Positions 29,437 to 40,522 of a stretch of 43,683 nucleotides of DNA are shown piece after piece. Both the position numbers and the translations under genes were made by a program. Origin of the DNA: an uncultured Lachnospiraceae bacterium (lineage in GTDB: Bacteria > Bacillota > Clostridia > Lachnospirales > Lachnospiraceae). The first letter of the stretch is position 1, and every line of letters starts with the position of its first letter. Where the stretch lies: the NCBI GenBank assembly GCA_944381535.1, contig CALWLN010000202.1:1-43683 (forward strand), written 5' to 3'. The notes beneath the pieces were generated by a model. That model made no database searches and was not told the origin of the DNA. It saw only the letters and a program-made list of their open reading frames with translations.

Positions 29437-29708
29437 GGATACCTCCTGTTCGGTGAACAGCGTCATAATCTGTTCAGTAATAATATTTCTTAAAATTGTG
29501 CTATCACGACAATCCCATGTGTTTCCAGTTTACCACAGGCTGTTTTTGATGGCAAGGTGAAGTGTCCACAATTTTAGAAAACGGTTTGATGAAAATTGAA
29601 AATCAATGGAATCTATAAAGAGAACAGATAAAAATAGCATTTGAATATCTGCAAGCAAAACCTGCTTACAAACATTGATAGAAATGTCAAAAAGCGGAGG
29701 GTTAATGG

Positions 29709-29728
29709 GGGGTGACACCGTCACCCCT
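29709..29728 (-). terminator. Hairpin, probable former terminator of the LCP gene
   Basis: GGGGTGAC (29709-29716) pairs with GTCACCCC (29721-29728) around ACC. The right arm lies inside the left copy of the 16-base repeat. If the ATPase/RloB insert were removed, the LCP stop codon would fall in this stem, a usual place for a terminator. No strong T run follows; CTTTTT appears about 20 bases on. Confidence 0.5.
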
Positions 29729-29736
29729 CCACATCA
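29721..29736. repeat. Left copy of 16-base direct repeat flanking the ATPase/RloB pair
   Basis: TCACCCCTCCACATCA, identical to 31578-31593. This copy includes the stop codon of the RloB-like gene (29734-29736). Confidence 0.85.
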
Positions 29737-30255
29737 TTCTTTTAGTAAATCATATAATGCATATTCATTTCTTTTAATATTGGACACCCTTCGATATTCT
29801 TTAATTGCTGCAATAAGGCAGTCAATGTCATGAAAATATTCTTTTACAAAACTGACACTTTTCACATTTGACATTTTTAAATCTGTTTTGCAAAAATCGC
29901 TTGGCTTCTTTCCAGATTTCTTGTACTCGTTGTACTTTCCCTCATTGAAAATTACCAACATCTCGATTTCCGGAGCCGTAATTACATTAACGACATCAAT
30001 TTTATGTTTGTATGCCTTACTCAGTTTAAAATTTTCTCTTCTGGAATCCAGAATCCGTAATACTGTAATTTTCTCTTTAAAACCCTTTCTCAAATATCTG
30101 GTTTCAAATGATTTTGCATCACGACAGCAAATAATTTCTCCTTCTAACAGCGCCTCTCTGCTAAAAATCAAGCGTTCCGCATCCAACAACAGATTAATTA
30201 TTGCCTGTTCTGCACCGCCTTCGCAGATACAAGCTATATATCCTTCCAGTTCCAT
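29734..30255 (-). CDS. RloB/TOPRIM-like putative defence nuclease
   Basis: 173 aa. CICEGGAEQAIINLL at residues 9-23 resembles the EGxxE first motif of TOPRIM/RloB proteins. Near residue 70 comes LRILDSRRE, and then TAPEIEMLVIF and KYNEYKKSGKKPSDFCK, like the conserved middle of RloB-type partners of ABC-like ATPases. The DxD of classic TOPRIM is not clear, so the family call is tentative. The gene follows the ATPase by two bases. Both are markedly more AT-rich than the neighbours, which points to recent transfer. Expected role: effector of a two-gene anti-phage system (as in AbiL or PARIS, by analogy). Confidence 0.55.
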   Translation of the reverse strand: MELEGYIACICEGGAEQAIINLLLDAERLIFSREALLEGEIICCRDAKSFETRYLRKGFKEKITVLRILDSRRENFKLSKAYKHKIDVVNVITAPEIEMLVIFNEGKYNEYKKSGKKPSDFCKTDLKMSNVKSVSFVKEYFHDIDCLIAAIKEYRRVSNIKRNEYALYDLLKE

Positions 30256-30257
30256 AA

Positions 30258-31409
30258 TTAAGCCCCCCTGCTTCGTGCCAGGAGTACCTTTTTCAAATCC
30301 ATATAGGATTCATACATCGGAACCGTTCCTTCTAAAAATCCACTCTGATATGCTTCACTTTTTTTAATATCATTCCTGTTGAGTATTTTGCTCAAATTCT
30401 GTACGGTGATTCCATTTCGATTTCTGGTAATAAAAATATTATCGTTTCTTTCAAATTCATCCAACAGTTCCGCATAATGTGTGGAGAAAACCAATACTGC
30501 CCCTTTGGAGTTCACCCTGGAATCCCGGTAGAAACGAATTAATATGGAAACTATCTCCTTATTGAAATGGTTTTCCAATTCATCCACTAAAAGATATCCA
30601 CCTTTTTCAAAAGTACGCATTGCATAGACGAACGTATTAATTCCTTTGATTGTACCGGAAGAAAGGTATCTATTCAGTTCTGTTGGATGATTCAAAACAA
30701 TTTCTTCTTTATCTCTAAACTTCAATCGAATATCTGCATCCTTCTTCATTTCTTTTATTCTCAGATATTCAATACTTGGATCAAAAAACGCAATCAGCTC
30801 TGGAGGAAATGTCTCTAAAACACTCAAAAGATTGGTATTCGTGTATTGTAGCATATCCGCCACATAAAGACTGCTTCTATTCTGCTTATTAAATGCCACC
30901 ATAATACTTACATCATCTAATAGAAAGGCTTCCGTTCCATCTCTGACTATAGATGCCTTTATAGATGCAAAATCATAAAGTCGCTTTTTACTCTTTACCT
31001 TTGAAACATCTTTTGTTTTTAGTTCCTCTTCACAAATATAGTATCTATCTGCTTTCTTTCCAACATTCGTTTTGAGATAATGAACCTGTTCTGTATCGGT
31101 ATAAAAATAAATTTCAAATACAACTTCTTCCCCTTCTGCTATTCCATCCAGAATTTCATTGCATGCAATGGTGTTAATAGGCTCATTGTTCAGCATGCGT
31201 ATGACAAAAGATAATACTTTTAACAATGTAGTTTTACCAGAAGCATTAATACCAACAATGGAAAGTACATTGTTCTGATAGATATTGCCAAAAATGCAAT
31301 ACATATTCTCTGCATTTTCTTCACTGACTCTCTGCATTGCCGCAAAATCAATTTCTAATGTCTCACGAAATAAAGCTAAACCATTCACAGTTATTTTAAG
31401 CAACTTCAT
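30258..31409 (-). CDS. AAA/ABC-like ATPase of the putative defence pair
   Basis: About 383 aa OLD/AAA_15-type ATPase. It begins MKLLKITVNGLALFRETLEI, the usual start of this class. Walker A is VGINASGKTTLLKVL near residue 55. The signature-like LSSGTIKGINTF, Walker B GGYLLVDELENHF and the switch His in FSTHYAELLDEF follow in order. The middle is a variable helical insertion. Start at 31409 chosen from the family N-terminus; an ATG at 31421 directly abuts GAGG and is less likely. With its partner it forms a compact pair of 1.7 kb with no regulator or integrase. It is not RecF, since that family lacks such a partner. Confidence 0.8.
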   Translation of the reverse strand: MKLLKITVNGLALFRETLEIDFAAMQRVSEENAENMYCIFGNIYQNNVLSIVGINASGKTTLLKVLSFVIRMLNNEPINTIACNEILDGIAEGEEVVFEIYFYTDTEQVHYLKTNVGKKADRYYICEEELKTKDVSKVKSKKRLYDFASIKASIVRDGTEAFLLDDVSIMVAFNKQNRSSLYVADMLQYTNTNLLSVLETFPPELIAFFDPSIEYLRIKEMKKDADIRLKFRDKEEIVLNHPTELNRYLSSGTIKGINTFVYAMRTFEKGGYLLVDELENHFNKEIVSILIRFYRDSRVNSKGAVLVFSTHYAELLDEFERNDNIFITRNRNGITVQNLSKILNRNDIKKSEAYQSGFLEGTVPMYESYMDLKKVLLARSRGA

Positions 31410-31544
31410 TTCATTCACCATCCTCGCATTATTTGTTATTATATTATTGATTTTACCTTTTTATATTCAAAAAGTCAATTTCAAAAACGCAATTACCGTT
31501 TTTATTTTTCATCTCTTCTTTTAAGCATATCCATTTTTTTAATA

Positions 31545-31571
31545 ACCATGCACCTGCCGAACAGTAAAACG
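31545..31571. repeat. Short remnant of the 6.2-6.6 kb palindromic element
   Basis: ACCATGCACCTGCC (31545-31558) is identical to 6232-6245, the left flank of the large palindrome. It is followed directly by GAACAGTAAAACG, close to the reverse complement of CGTTACTGTTC at 6258-6268. This looks like both ends of that element joined after loss of the middle. It lies just inside the right border of the ATPase/RloB insert. Confidence 0.5.
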
Positions 31572-31577
31572 CACACA

Positions 31578-31593
31578 TCACCCCTCCACATCA
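31578..31593. repeat. Right copy of 16-base direct repeat
   Basis: Same 16 bases as 29721-29736. Here the repeat encodes the last four residues and stop of the LCP protein (DVEG, TGA). Confidence 0.85.
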
Positions 31594-33074
31594 ATGACTT
31601 CCCCCGCCAATATCCCTTGGAGCAGATCGCTGGCCTTCGCCACGTCCTCCTCATAGGGAATCATCACATAATTGGGTTTGCTCAAAGAGAACATACTCTT
31701 ATTCGCGTCCGAACCACTGACGCTGAAACTCTGCACATCCCAGCTTCCCCCATTGGTCAGCTGAAACCTGACCAGCTGGGTGATCTCGTCCGTGGTCATA
31801 TTGGTGGCAAAGGTTCCCTCCACCTCCTGCATGATCTCCGCGTAATTGGTAAGAAGGGTTGTAGAGGTCAGCTTGTCAATCACGCCCTCTATGACGCGCA
31901 TCTGGTTTTTCCCCCGCTGGCGGTCTCCCGAGGCGAAGGCGTGGCGCTCCCGGGCAAAATCCAGCGCCTGGGAACCGTTCAAATAGTTTGCTCCCTTGAC
32001 ATAATGGGTGGAGCCCACGGTAAAATCATAATCCGATTGGACGGTAACCCCGCCCAGAGCGTCGATCAGTCCTTCAAATCCGGTAAAATTCACCTTGAAA
32101 TAATAATCAATGTCCACGCCATAGAGCATTTCCAGGGTTCCCATGGACACATCAATCCCATAGATTCCCGCATGGGTCAGCTTGTCCTTCTGGCCGTTTG
32201 AAATGGGCAGCTCCACGTAGTAGTCTCTCGGAGTGGAAACCATCAGGATCTGCCTTGTCTGGGGATTGACGGCCACCAGAATGTTCACGTCCGAACGGCT
32301 TGTGGTGGTTACAGCGCCCCAGGTATCCAACCCGCTGACATAAACCAGAAACGGATCGCCCGGTTCCACAGGCTCCGCCGGTTCTTCCTCCGTCGGCTCC
32401 TCGGTCGTCTGGTCCTCCTGGGGAACCTCCACATAGGTGACGATCTCATAGGAAGCGATCTGCTTGATTCTGGCATCCAGATTCTCGTAGCCCTCCACTT
32501 CCTTTAATGGCTCTAAGTACCCTTCATTTAAGAGGATCACATCGCAATCCTGAAACAGCAGTCCATTTATCAGCAGAATCACATCGGAATATTCCTGGGG
32601 CTCTATGGTCTCTCCCAGGTCCTGCTCCGCCATCCCAAGGGCCTGGTCCGTGCGTTCCCGTTCCAGCTCGCCGATAATGCCGAAGGTCATCCCTGCGCAC
32701 TGCTCCACACTGGTAATGTCCTCCTCCGCCCGGACATAAACCCCCATCACCGTTCTCTGTTCGGCCTGATTGGCCACTACCCCAAGGGCAGAAATGCTGT
32801 GATACAGATAATAATTGGCAACAGACGTCAAGATAACACTCAAAAGCGCCAGAAAGGCTCCGACGGCATACCAGAATTTTCTTTTTTTCTTTGGGAACAG
32901 CAGCAATGCCGACCCGGCTGTCAGCAGGAGCAGCACTCCATAGATTCCTGCCAGGTAGAGTCCCGGCAGTACCGACAGCTTACTTAAAAAGACTGTCAGC
33001 AGGACGATTCCCGCAATGTTGATCAGTTCTAAAATGCTTCCCAATATAACGCATACTTTTTTTCCTGTTTTCAT
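31578..33074 (-). CDS. LytR-CpsA-Psr family glycopolymer ligase
   Basis: 498 aa membrane enzyme that transfers lipid-linked wall polymers to peptidoglycan. Three or more N-terminal membrane helices lie in residues about 8-95 (VILGSILELINIAGIVLLTV, LAGIYGVLLLLTAGSALLLF, FLALLSVILTSVANYYLYH). Residues about 105-215 resemble a periplasmic binding-protein-like insert (AGMTFGIIGELERERTDQAL, DVILLINGLLFQDCDVILLN). A Glu/Pro-rich spacer follows. The LCP core has RSDVNILVAVNPQTRQILMV, STPRDYYVELP, and QRGKNQMRVIEGVIDKLTS, with the conserved Arg and Asp residues. Neighbours glmS, wecB and capF supply the polymer precursors. The 3' end is the site of the 16-base repeat. Confidence 0.92.
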   Translation of the reverse strand: MKTGKKVCVILGSILELINIAGIVLLTVFLSKLSVLPGLYLAGIYGVLLLLTAGSALLLFPKKKRKFWYAVGAFLALLSVILTSVANYYLYHSISALGVVANQAEQRTVMGVYVRAEEDITSVEQCAGMTFGIIGELERERTDQALGMAEQDLGETIEPQEYSDVILLINGLLFQDCDVILLNEGYLEPLKEVEGYENLDARIKQIASYEIVTYVEVPQEDQTTEEPTEEEPAEPVEPGDPFLVYVSGLDTWGAVTTTSRSDVNILVAVNPQTRQILMVSTPRDYYVELPISNGQKDKLTHAGIYGIDVSMGTLEMLYGVDIDYYFKVNFTGFEGLIDALGGVTVQSDYDFTVGSTHYVKGANYLNGSQALDFARERHAFASGDRQRGKNQMRVIEGVIDKLTSTTLLTNYAEIMQEVEGTFATNMTTDEITQLVRFQLTNGGSWDVQSFSVSGSDANKSMFSLSKPNYVMIPYEEDVAKASDLLQGILAGEVIDVEG

Positions 33075-38827: not shown

Positions 38828-40522
38828 TCATGCCATTACAACCATGCACTCTTTCTCACAAAACGCGATACCATACTTGATGATTTTCTTCATGCCCCAT
38901 CGTTTCAGGCCTTCCGCGTATTTCCTCTCCTCAATCTGTCTAAGTGCCTCTGCACAGGCTGCCTCCAGGTTCCCATCATCCGCATACTTCAGTTCGATCA
39001 CAATCCCTGAGCGTTCCGGTGTCTGGATGGAAATATCACTGTAGCCTTCCCCAGTCTCCGCATTGGACTTTACCAACCAGCTGTCCCGACTCCGCAAAAG
39101 CCCAAGCAGCATCCCATGATAAAAGTTTTCTTTCATGTTCCTTCGTACCGCCGTATCCCTCACACTAATGGAATCCCACAGGTACTCACCGAGCATATCC
39201 TGAATCGCTGCCACATCCCCGGCCGGAAATGCCGCGCAAAATCGGTTGATCCGCGCTGCGTCTGCCTGGGTCGTTTCTTCAAACCAGTCCTTTACCAGAT
39301 CAATAAACAGTTCTCTTACCTCCCTGTTCGGCAATGCCAACTCCATTTTCTTTCCCTGCACCCTCTTTCGACAGGTCAGGTACCCTTTGGAATAAAGGAC
39401 ACTCCAGATATTATCAATGGAATCCTCCACCTCCCTGTAGGTCAGTTCCTGACGAATGGATTTTGTGATGGTTCCGCCGTTGATCAGCTGCTCAACCTCA
39501 TTTCTCGTGCTTTGATTCGCTTTCTTCATCAGACGTCGAATCAGATCGTTTCCGCTGGTGTTGGCCCAGTAGTTTTCCGGTTCTACACATGGATTTGCCA
39601 ACAGCTCATCGCAGTAATTGATCACATCCCAGGGACAATATACGTCTGTATCCCCAAAACGATACCCATCATACCAGTCACGGATCACATCTTTATAAGA
39701 GGACAGCCCATAGAACTTAAGGATTTCATCCACATCTGCATTGGTAAAGCCGAAGTACTCATCATACCTGAAATCCGAAATCGTGTGTACCTTCGGATTG
39801 TTCAGTCCAGTAAATATGCTCTCCTTGGAAATCCGCAGACACCCGGTAAGCACTGCAAAGTACAGACTGTCATTTGTTTTCAGCGCGTTGCCAAGCAGGT
39901 TTCGAATGAGATTTACCATCTTATCATAGTATCCTCCCTGAAATGCCTTATCCAATGGAACATCATACTCATCAATCAGCAGGATAACCTTCTGACCATA
40001 GTGCTTGGATAAAAGACGAGAGAGCGTTTTTAAACTTGCGACCGCAACTTTTTCTGACATTGTATAAATCCCGCCCTGCGATGAACCAACCTCTGTCAAC
40101 TGAGCGTAAGCTTCCTTTTCATCATTCGTCAGCCTGTCGCTGAAACCTAAAAAATGGAATCTTACGGCTTCATCTCCAATCACGGTCCGCAGCGCATCCA
40201 ACGCTGTTTGAAAATCCAGACCATCAACACTTTTCAGACTTATGGAGATTACAGGGAACTTCCCCATGTATTCTTCACACAGATTCTTTTCCTGCATGAT
40301 CTTTAGCCCGTCAAAAACTGATGGGTCGCTCCCTATCTCAAAAAAGTTCTTCAGCATGCTCATGTTCAATGTTTTGCCAAAACGCCTGGGGCGTGTAAAC
40401 AGGTTTACTTCACCCCAGTTTTGTAACAGTTCCTTAATGAACAGCGTTTTATCCGCATAATAAAAATCATTCACTCTGATTTTTTCAAATCCATCAATGC
40501 CGATGGGAAGCTTCTTCCTCAC
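38828..40522 (-). CDS. AAA-ATPase-like protein with C-terminal PD-(D/E)XK nuclease domain
   Basis: About 564 aa of the widespread AAA-ATPase_like plus PDDEXK_9 family (often called DUF1703). The start RKKLPIGIDGFEKIRVNDFY is the family N-terminus. Walker-A-like RPRRFGKT is at residues 44-51 and Walker-B-like KVILLIDEYDVPLDKAF near 180. The C-terminus has YSDISIQTPERSGIVIELKY, the D...ExK nuclease core. I prefer the GTG at 40522, ten bases after AAGGAG, over a GTG at 40630 that lacks a ribosome site. Function in vivo is not established; such genes are numerous in gut Firmicutes and Bacteroidetes. It lies upstream of capF and is flanked by near-identical 18-base repeats. Confidence 0.85.
   Translation of the reverse strand: MRKKLPIGIDGFEKIRVNDFYYADKTLFIKELLQNWGEVNLFTRPRRFGKTLNMSMLKNFFEIGSDPSVFDGLKIMQEKNLCEEYMGKFPVISISLKSVDGLDFQTALDALRTVIGDEAVRFHFLGFSDRLTNDEKEAYAQLTEVGSSQGGIYTMSEKVAVASLKTLSRLLSKHYGQKVILLIDEYDVPLDKAFQGGYYDKMVNLIRNLLGNALKTNDSLYFAVLTGCLRISKESIFTGLNNPKVHTISDFRYDEYFGFTNADVDEILKFYGLSSYKDVIRDWYDGYRFGDTDVYCPWDVINYCDELLANPCVEPENYWANTSGNDLIRRLMKKANQSTRNEVEQLINGGTITKSIRQELTYREVEDSIDNIWSVLYSKGYLTCRKRVQGKKMELALPNREVRELFIDLVKDWFEETTQADAARINRFCAAFPAGDVAAIQDMLGEYLWDSISVRDTAVRRNMKENFYHGMLLGLLRSRDSWLVKSNAETGEGYSDISIQTPERSGIVIELKYADDGNLEAACAEALRQIEERKYAEGLKRWGMKKIIKYGIAFCEKECMVVMA

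Follow-up and report, generated by a model that had tools for sequence, protein, structure and literature searches.

An unusual AbiL-like gene cassette inserted behind an LCP gene of a Lachnospiraceae bacterium and probably self-regulated

In an uncultured Lachnospiraceae bacterium, a pair of genes lies directly behind the stop codon of a LytR-CpsA-Psr (LCP) gene, at a place where a sister species carries no such pair. The stretch of DNA analysed here is the whole of contig CALWLN010000202.1 (assembly GCA_944381535.1; 43,683 nucleotides) and is referred to below as the window. The locus is most likely the result of an ordinary insertion, in which an unusual, probably self-regulated AbiL-like cassette was gained. 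Stated in full, and with somewhat better than even confidence, the pair is interpreted as a complete two-gene immunity cassette of the AbiL kind that was horizontally acquired, was inserted by illegitimate recombination, and probably represses its own expression. In such a cassette, of the abortive-infection or toxin-antitoxin type, an ABC ATPase would act as sensor and keeper, and its partner, translated directly behind it, would be a small nuclease-like effector. Observed directly are the absence of the pair from the sister-species site, the repeat, the similarity borders, and the conserved palindromes; a role in defense, nuclease activity, self-repression, and the route of recombination are inferred. 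On the minus strand the LCP gene is followed by a spacer, a palindrome, a promoter-like site, the genes for the ATPase and the partner, the second copy of a 16-base repeat, and the remainder of a hairpin:

31578..33074, minus strand: LCP gene, the insertion target, intact
31578..31593: right copy of the 16-base repeat, holding the last codons and stop of the LCP gene
29737..31577, minus strand: inserted DNA between the repeats, 1,841 bp (1,857 bp with one repeat copy), 34% GC
31505..31577, minus strand: spacer of 73 bp from the LCP stop to O1
31482..31504, minus strand: proposed operator O1, the palindrome TAAAAACG-GTAATTG-CGTTTTTG on that strand
31450..31478, minus strand: promoter-like TTGACT-N17-TAAAAT, directly behind O1
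31419..31441, minus strand: proposed operator O2, degenerate, TAATAACA-AATAATG-CGAGGATG, 63 bp from O1
30258..31421, minus strand: AbiLi-like ABC ATPase (GINASGKTT, LSSGT, LLVDELEN, STHY)
29734..30255, minus strand: small partner protein of 173 aa with conserved CEGxxE, ILDSRRE and TAPEIE motifs
29721..29736: left copy of the 16-base repeat, with the partner stop codon and the 5' arm of the terminator-like hairpin inside
29689..29732, minus strand: terminator-like hairpin 3' of the partner gene, GTGGAGGG ... CCCTCCGC TTTTT, with an inner hairpin

The two genes are adjacent and co-directional, with the ATPase first (its end is at 30258 and the partner starts at 30255). For the ATPase, the ATG at 31409 is a likelier start than 31421, and it aligns with the starts of the relatives. 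O2 was assigned by eye against the family consensus, the automatic palindrome scan having passed over it.

The insertion and its junctions

The original prediction, that the pair is bracketed by exact 16-base direct repeats, holds: TCACCCCTCCACATCA occurs at 29721-29736 and 31578-31593, a search of the window that tolerates two mismatches still returns only these two copies (0.06 expected), and the two exact copies found in the bacterium's own genome (4.3 Mb, 93% complete) are both those of the window. As had been described, the LCP gene ends within the right copy, which supplies its last codons and stop (...GAT GTG GAG GGG TGA on the minus strand), and the left copy, which starts with the stop codon of the partner gene, contains one arm of the hairpin. 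The longest word common to the two 600-bp flanks is 16 bases; in 2,000 Markov-resampled pairs of flanks the longest reached 14. By flank alignment score the repeat reaches 25.4 bits, which is only the 99th percentile of mismatched flank pairs; its weight therefore comes from its being exact and touching both gene ends.

Since the 5' arm of the hairpin lies inside the 16-mer, the partner gene is followed, as a result of the duplication, by a terminator-like hairpin. The hairpin has a folding z of -2.45; an alternative fold of nearly the same energy (-18.1 vs -19.3 kcal/mol) joins GTGGAGGG to CCCTCCGC immediately 5' of TTTTT. The hairpin is absent from the list returned by a terminator pattern scan of the window.

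That the pair is an insertion is supported by the pair-free sister species, by a deviating base composition (34% GC compared to 50% in the rest of the window, in agreement with the predicted AT-richness), and by relatives at other sites. In the sister species (G005), the LCP protein is 85% identical to that of the window, the end of the LCP gene continues into downstream DNA without the pair between, and the partner has no match in the genome. The alignment with related genomes that had been proposed as a check accordingly yielded a pair-free site with a single 16-mer-like copy, but that copy is not a clean one: 13 of 16 positions are identical in a by-eye count on the alignment. Because the intergenic DNA has diverged, the precise insertion junction is not readable there. 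In a survey of the genus, the partner was matched in 3 of 6 genomes, namely the window genome, G001, and G003; in G001 (locus L068) the partner gene is apparently interrupted, and in G003 (L069) it is a fragment, each at another site. Such interrupted and fragmentary partners in the genus of the window suggest repeated gain and decay.

The two proteins and their likeness to known systems

The ATPase of the window is matched best, among 37 families, by the PADLOC profile AbiLi (E 5.3e-37), with weaker matches to AriA (2e-14) and GajA (9e-5). All 18 members of ATPase set A2, the window protein included, match AbiLi. Its GINASGKTT, LSSGT, LLVDELEN, and STHY segments are taken here to be ABC motifs. 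The affiliation of the ATPase with the AbiL theme, as originally proposed, is upheld by this profile comparison.

The partner is a different case. It belongs to no family in the libraries searched: Pfam (limit 1e-3), NCBIfam (1), and PADLOC (0.1) gave no match, and a comparison with PDB sequences gave no significant one. Nor is it among the PF13707 (RloB) matches of its own genome, which are two other proteins. In that genome a second pair is seen, composed of a PF13707 match at C97:4807-5325 and an ATPase-like frame at C97:5441-5806 with 29% identity to the window ATPase; the other of the two PF13707 proteins is at C70:55133-55492. Among relatives of the partner, 1 of 17 matches PF13707 (E 0.0095). 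An hhalign comparison of the partner with twelve PF13707 proteins gave E 0.031 at a probability of 1.6%, with two other comparisons weaker still; in that same alignment CEG..E, the first D, and TAPEIE (opposite SNxCFELW) stand in register. The TOPRIM motif comprises the residues E and DxD. In an alignment of 55 partner sequences, E12, E16, and D70 are invariant and E74 nearly so, and the second acid of DxD is not conserved. In the absence of a profile match the name RloB is remote and unproven for this protein; the partner is, at best, possibly a remote RloB/TOPRIM-like relative, and the RloB/TOPRIM label that it had been given is weak, as none of the profile searches assigns that name to the window protein. 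The profile comparison that had been suggested favors an AbiLi-like ATPase but leaves the partner without a match to an AbiLii, RloB, or AriB model at the limits used. No match of the partner to AriB, which is presumably a DUF4435 TOPRIM effector, or to another PADLOC or Pfam family was obtained, and the pair is not assigned to PARIS.

The nearest known system is AbiL of Lactococcus lactis (AbiLi ATPase and AbiLii), which likewise has two genes, the ATPase of the window fitting its AbiLi profile. The genes of both are adjacent and co-directional with the ATPase first, the order in AbiL being taken from the name order abiLi/abiLii (PMC3985639). The two differ in that the partner of the window matches no AbiLii or RloB (PF13707) model at the limits used, and in that AbiL is described as plasmid-encoded in L. 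lactis (PMC10440598) whereas the pair of the window is on a contig with chromosomal genes. It should be noted that L. lactis AbiLii is reported as not toxic in Escherichia coli and that the AbiLi of Fusobacterium nucleatum failed to counter its toxic AbiLii (PMC3985639), so, as far as these reports go, a keeper function is not general. Additionally, the AAA(D29):TOPRIM_OLD(D44, RloB) pair of Clostridium algidicarnis from the NetFlax study resembles the pair of the window in having two genes, for an ATPase and a small protein that in the window is at best remotely RloB-like; this AAA:RloB-type pair was validated by toxicity neutralization (PMC10440598). Operators are not mentioned for it in the available portion of that source. 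PARIS (AriA and AriB; PMC12409363) and Gabija (GajA) also join an ABC ATPase to a TOPRIM nuclease, and GajA, an ATPase-TOPRIM protein, is reported to recognize and nick an AT-winged palindrome, AATAACCNGGTTATT (PMC8136825). The AriA and GajA profiles, however, fit the ATPase of the window far worse than AbiLi does.

Relatives of the pair and the mode of insertion

One scan of named genomes confirmed a total of 203 relatives, of which 80 were taken further; both ends were present in 73 of these, and with ten further loci, the window included, they form a set of 83 loci. Near-duplicates were left out as each comparison required: 5, along with 11 short-flank loci, from the sets for flanking repeats and gene-matched units (67 loci remaining), 9 from the set for upstream open reading frames (74 loci, with a frame called in 62), and 8 from the palindrome set (75 loci). 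Open reading frames at the loci of relatives come from a simple ORF finder, and profile scans of neighbors covered 90 of 96 upstream and 101 of 113 downstream frames.

By their records, the hosts are mostly Clostridia, with others assigned to Psychromonas, Sulfurovum, Campylobacteraceae, Fusobacteriaceae, and Spirochaetaceae; all of the non-Clostridia records except Psychromonas are metagenome-derived and possibly contaminated. In a tree of 44 pairs, Psychromonas groups with Sulfurovum and host families are intermixed. A search for the pair at other loci, as had been recommended, thus found relatives at many unrelated sites, next to genes that range from ribosomal protein S9 to transporters, and the claim that the pair behaves as a self-contained unit is sustained. 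Relatives are rare on known plasmid and viral carriers, with matches on 3 of 72,556 plasmids, none of 50,697 phage records (E 1e-5), and 4 viral contigs. Among the neighbor families listed, the 90 upstream frames gave four matches to the serine Recombinase domain and one to an IS66 transposase, and the 101 downstream frames gave two to a PDDEXK transposase family; the 25 families listed per side (of 164 upstream and 177 downstream) include no tyrosine integrase. Copies at L110, L117, and L172 lie beside TraG-like or recombinase genes.

The borders of similarity were tabulated for the 263 of 3,390 pairwise alignments that have at least 72% identity and span the cassette. In the 37 alignments at 80-84% identity, the borders of similarity have medians of -106 (before the ATPase) and +4 (after the partner stop), and the other identity bands below 88% lie near these values. 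The left border coincides with O1, and no common sequence was found by eye behind the right border. Tight borders at 72-88% identity are partly expected, since neutral flanks would have decayed; a handful of alignments between unlike contexts at 88-91% identity, for example L099 and L106, is better evidence. Of the 26 alignments in the 88-100% band only 19% show tight borders, since larger flanks are shared in many of the 26. Loci L126, L131, L143, and L150 form one sub-lineage whose flanks, near-identical over several kilobases across genera, look like part of a larger mobile element.

A preference for gene ends was considered and rejected: the cassette is co-oriented with the upstream frame at 47 of 62 loci, compared to a background of 206 of 293 neighboring frames (p = 0.44). 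Two candidates for a recurrent target, the end of rpsI (L144 by Pfam and L084 by the look of its last residues) and the end of a CspB-like protease gene (L161 by Pfam and L068 by the look of its last residues), were not counted, since about 0.8 such coincidences are expected (estimated for 70 insertions and 3,000 genes).

Strong direct repeats beside the cassette occur at 7 of 67 loci (0.015 expected from mismatched flanks). They are 38-224 bp long, 82-97% identical, and different in length and sequence each time. The remaining 60 loci have no strong repeat in the tested windows, and by score the 16-mer of the window is outside the seven. Gene-matched units of the same loci have such repeats in 5 of 315 cases (p = 0.0015 by unit), and a comparison with shifted intervals gave 5 of 68 pairs against 14 of 3,432; counted by locus, the comparison is 7 of 67 cassettes to 4 of 59 gene-matched loci (p = 0.34), a weak excess. 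A search of 3-kb flanks listed repeats at 13 of 83 loci, where those at L095, L127, L068, L107, L166, and L080 were outside the test windows of the 67 loci or weak there. Local gene families seem to account for the repeats at L095 and L068, and IS66 remnants, judging by the translation of the upstream frame, for that at L127; none of the three is regarded as a cassette duplication. L164, too, lies beside what its translation suggests are transposase-like remnants, but it was kept among the seven.

Several flanking repeats contain a hairpin, among them those of L108 (behind dnaJ), G293, and G312. The hairpin at L108 (796-859 and 2801-2865) measures 37 bp, has perfect arms of 16 bases, and lies on either side of the cassette, between dnaJ and a convergent frame. 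The tightest duplication seen is a 108-bp direct repeat of 94% identity at L118 (4619-4726 and 6513-6620), with one copy overlapping the partner stop and the other ending some 7 bp short of O1. An integron-like or terminator-seeking carrier was entertained for the hairpins and rejected: the G293 sequence occurs twice in its genome, both times at the cassette, the G312 pattern missed the upstream copy, whose loop differs in length, and matched the downstream one alone, and in the other two genomes searched neither pattern had a match. Empty-site comparisons for G293 and G254 met with relatives that were too distant or lacked the gene.

Repeats that are so unlike in length and sequence are a poor fit to a transposase or an integrase. 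In three species, 10-18% of small variable segments have been reported to be flanked by direct repeats, mostly shorter than 30 bp; illegitimate recombination was favored for such segments, and the repeats were read largely as deletion sites (PMC2884548). The small insertion of the window and its 16-bp repeat fit this ordinary class, as far as the source describes it, with the difference that the published census counts repeats of at least 5 bp within three species and the cassette repeats, of 16-224 bp, are compared across species. The site-specific carrier that had been envisaged is unsupported, since the repeats differ, the co-orientation is that of the background, and the published base rate is similar. 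Specifically, the 16-mer is absent from all 230 other loci, which speaks against site-specific insertion, and with 60 of 67 loci free of a strong repeat the idea of a new carrier that targets a gene end plus terminator is not sustained either. Illegitimate recombination that forms a duplication is likelier than a site-specific carrier.

An exact 16-bp repeat that rebuilds a gene end is the usual footprint of a tyrosine integrase. A site-specific recombinase encoded elsewhere in the cell could therefore have inserted the cassette, with the 16-mer as attachment core, and such an enzyme would be compatible with an insert that has no recombinase among its open reading frames of 80 aa and more, as had been noted originally. 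This explanation is nevertheless considered unlikely: an integrase-carried element would differ from the insert of the window, which has neither a recombinase frame nor a core shared with the 230 other loci, the strong repeats at the seven loci are diverged by 3-18% and mutually unlike, and recombinases and transposases are few among the neighbor families listed. It is similarly improbable that the cassette is a remnant of a larger element that lost its other genes and to which the repeat belonged. The kilobases of flank shared across genera in one sub-lineage and the copies that adjoin TraG-like or recombinase genes would fit such an origin, but most alignments below 88% identity share only the 1.8-kb unit (neutral flanks may have decayed), and the spacers to the repeats in the window are short (73 bp on one side and none on the other).

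Much less probable still is a pair that moves itself, the ATPase and a TOPRIM-like protein cutting DNA at or near the palindromes and so promoting their own insertion. The coincidence of the left border with O1 and the nicking of AATAACCNGGTTATT by GajA (PMC8136825) are in its favor, but inspection by eye showed no common sequence behind the right border, and borders of functional DNA would be expected to match the borders of similarity anyway. A chance repeat, the pair having come by another route, is about the least probable reading; the alignment score, no higher than the 99th percentile of mismatched flanks, speaks for it, yet an exact 16-mer that touches both gene ends exceeds anything in the 2,000 resamplings. 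Under the preferred explanation, an ordinary insertion by illegitimate recombination, the cassette would have arrived by horizontal transfer and been joined behind the LCP stop codon in a duplication-forming event aided by short homology, and the 16-bp duplication would have preserved both the end of the LCP gene and the terminator-like hairpin.

Palindromes at the promoter and probable self-regulation

Operator-like sites are found at the promoter and are conserved in relatives. Two 23-bp palindromes with the consensus TAAAAACG-N7-CGTTTTTA lie upstream of the ATPase, one on each side of the promoter, and in 60 of 75 non-redundant loci they are spaced 61-63 bp apart; in shuffled upstream DNA the two best sites are 60-64 bp apart in 5% of cases. 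The 130-bp upstream windows hold 39 instances of the pattern AAAACG-N7-CGTT, spread over 33 of 75 loci, compared to a single one in the rest of the 777 kb. Copies from Psychromonas, Sulfurovum, Campylobacteraceae, and Spirochaetaceae share the two-site layout; in that from Fusobacteriaceae the spacing is 83, and the more distant relatives in Ligilactobacillus and Bifidobacterium are without the layout. In the window, O1 is near-perfect and O2 degenerate; a search of the window with three mismatches returned O1 and one other site, at 40010 (0.22 expected). Across 8 whole genomes (7 of them pair-bearing) the strict motif was found at 5 places in 4 genomes, all at the cassette, with no match in the pair-bearing window genome (G000), G198, and G254. 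A reversed control pattern matched as often in the same genomes (7 matches compared to 6 strand-wise matches of the real motif), and the support for an operator thus comes from the location of the sites, not from their number.

The paired palindromes suggest self-repression of the cassette. The position of the two palindromes, some six helical turns from each other on either side of the promoter, makes repression of the cassette by its own pair of proteins, or by one of them, most likely; and since the palindromes accompany the gene pair in several phyla, the regulator would most simply be the pair itself. A precedent is AbiE, also a two-gene system, in which AbiEi is reported to repress via inverted repeats at its own promoter (PMC3985639). 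AbiEi is a winged-helix protein, whereas profile searches named no DNA-binding domain in the ATPase or the partner, and the family of the window has two palindromes 61-63 bp apart. The recognition of AATAACCNGGTTATT by GajA (PMC8136825) indicates, by analogy only, that such DNA recognition is possible in the wider class. A literature search, with preprints and most subscription journals outside its scope, gave no work on operators of AbiL or RloB pairs among the matches listed. A more specific and tentative possibility, to which well under even confidence is attached, is that the ATPase-effector complex itself is the repressor and bridges the palindromes, such that the phage signal that releases the effector also frees the promoter. 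Under self-repression of either form, a phage trigger would free effector and promoter together.

The tempting insertion footprint of the window, once checked with controls, need not imply a new carrier. The locus and its relatives point to compact immune cassettes that form a family, with a second protein outside the libraries searched and a conserved control element that is directly testable. If the complex is the repressor, a unit of 1.8 kb would hold sensor, effector, and switch and need no third gene, and its ability to function in distant phyla after transfer on its own would be explained. Should the pair bind its own palindromes, ATPase-nuclease immunity would gain a built-in transcription switch.
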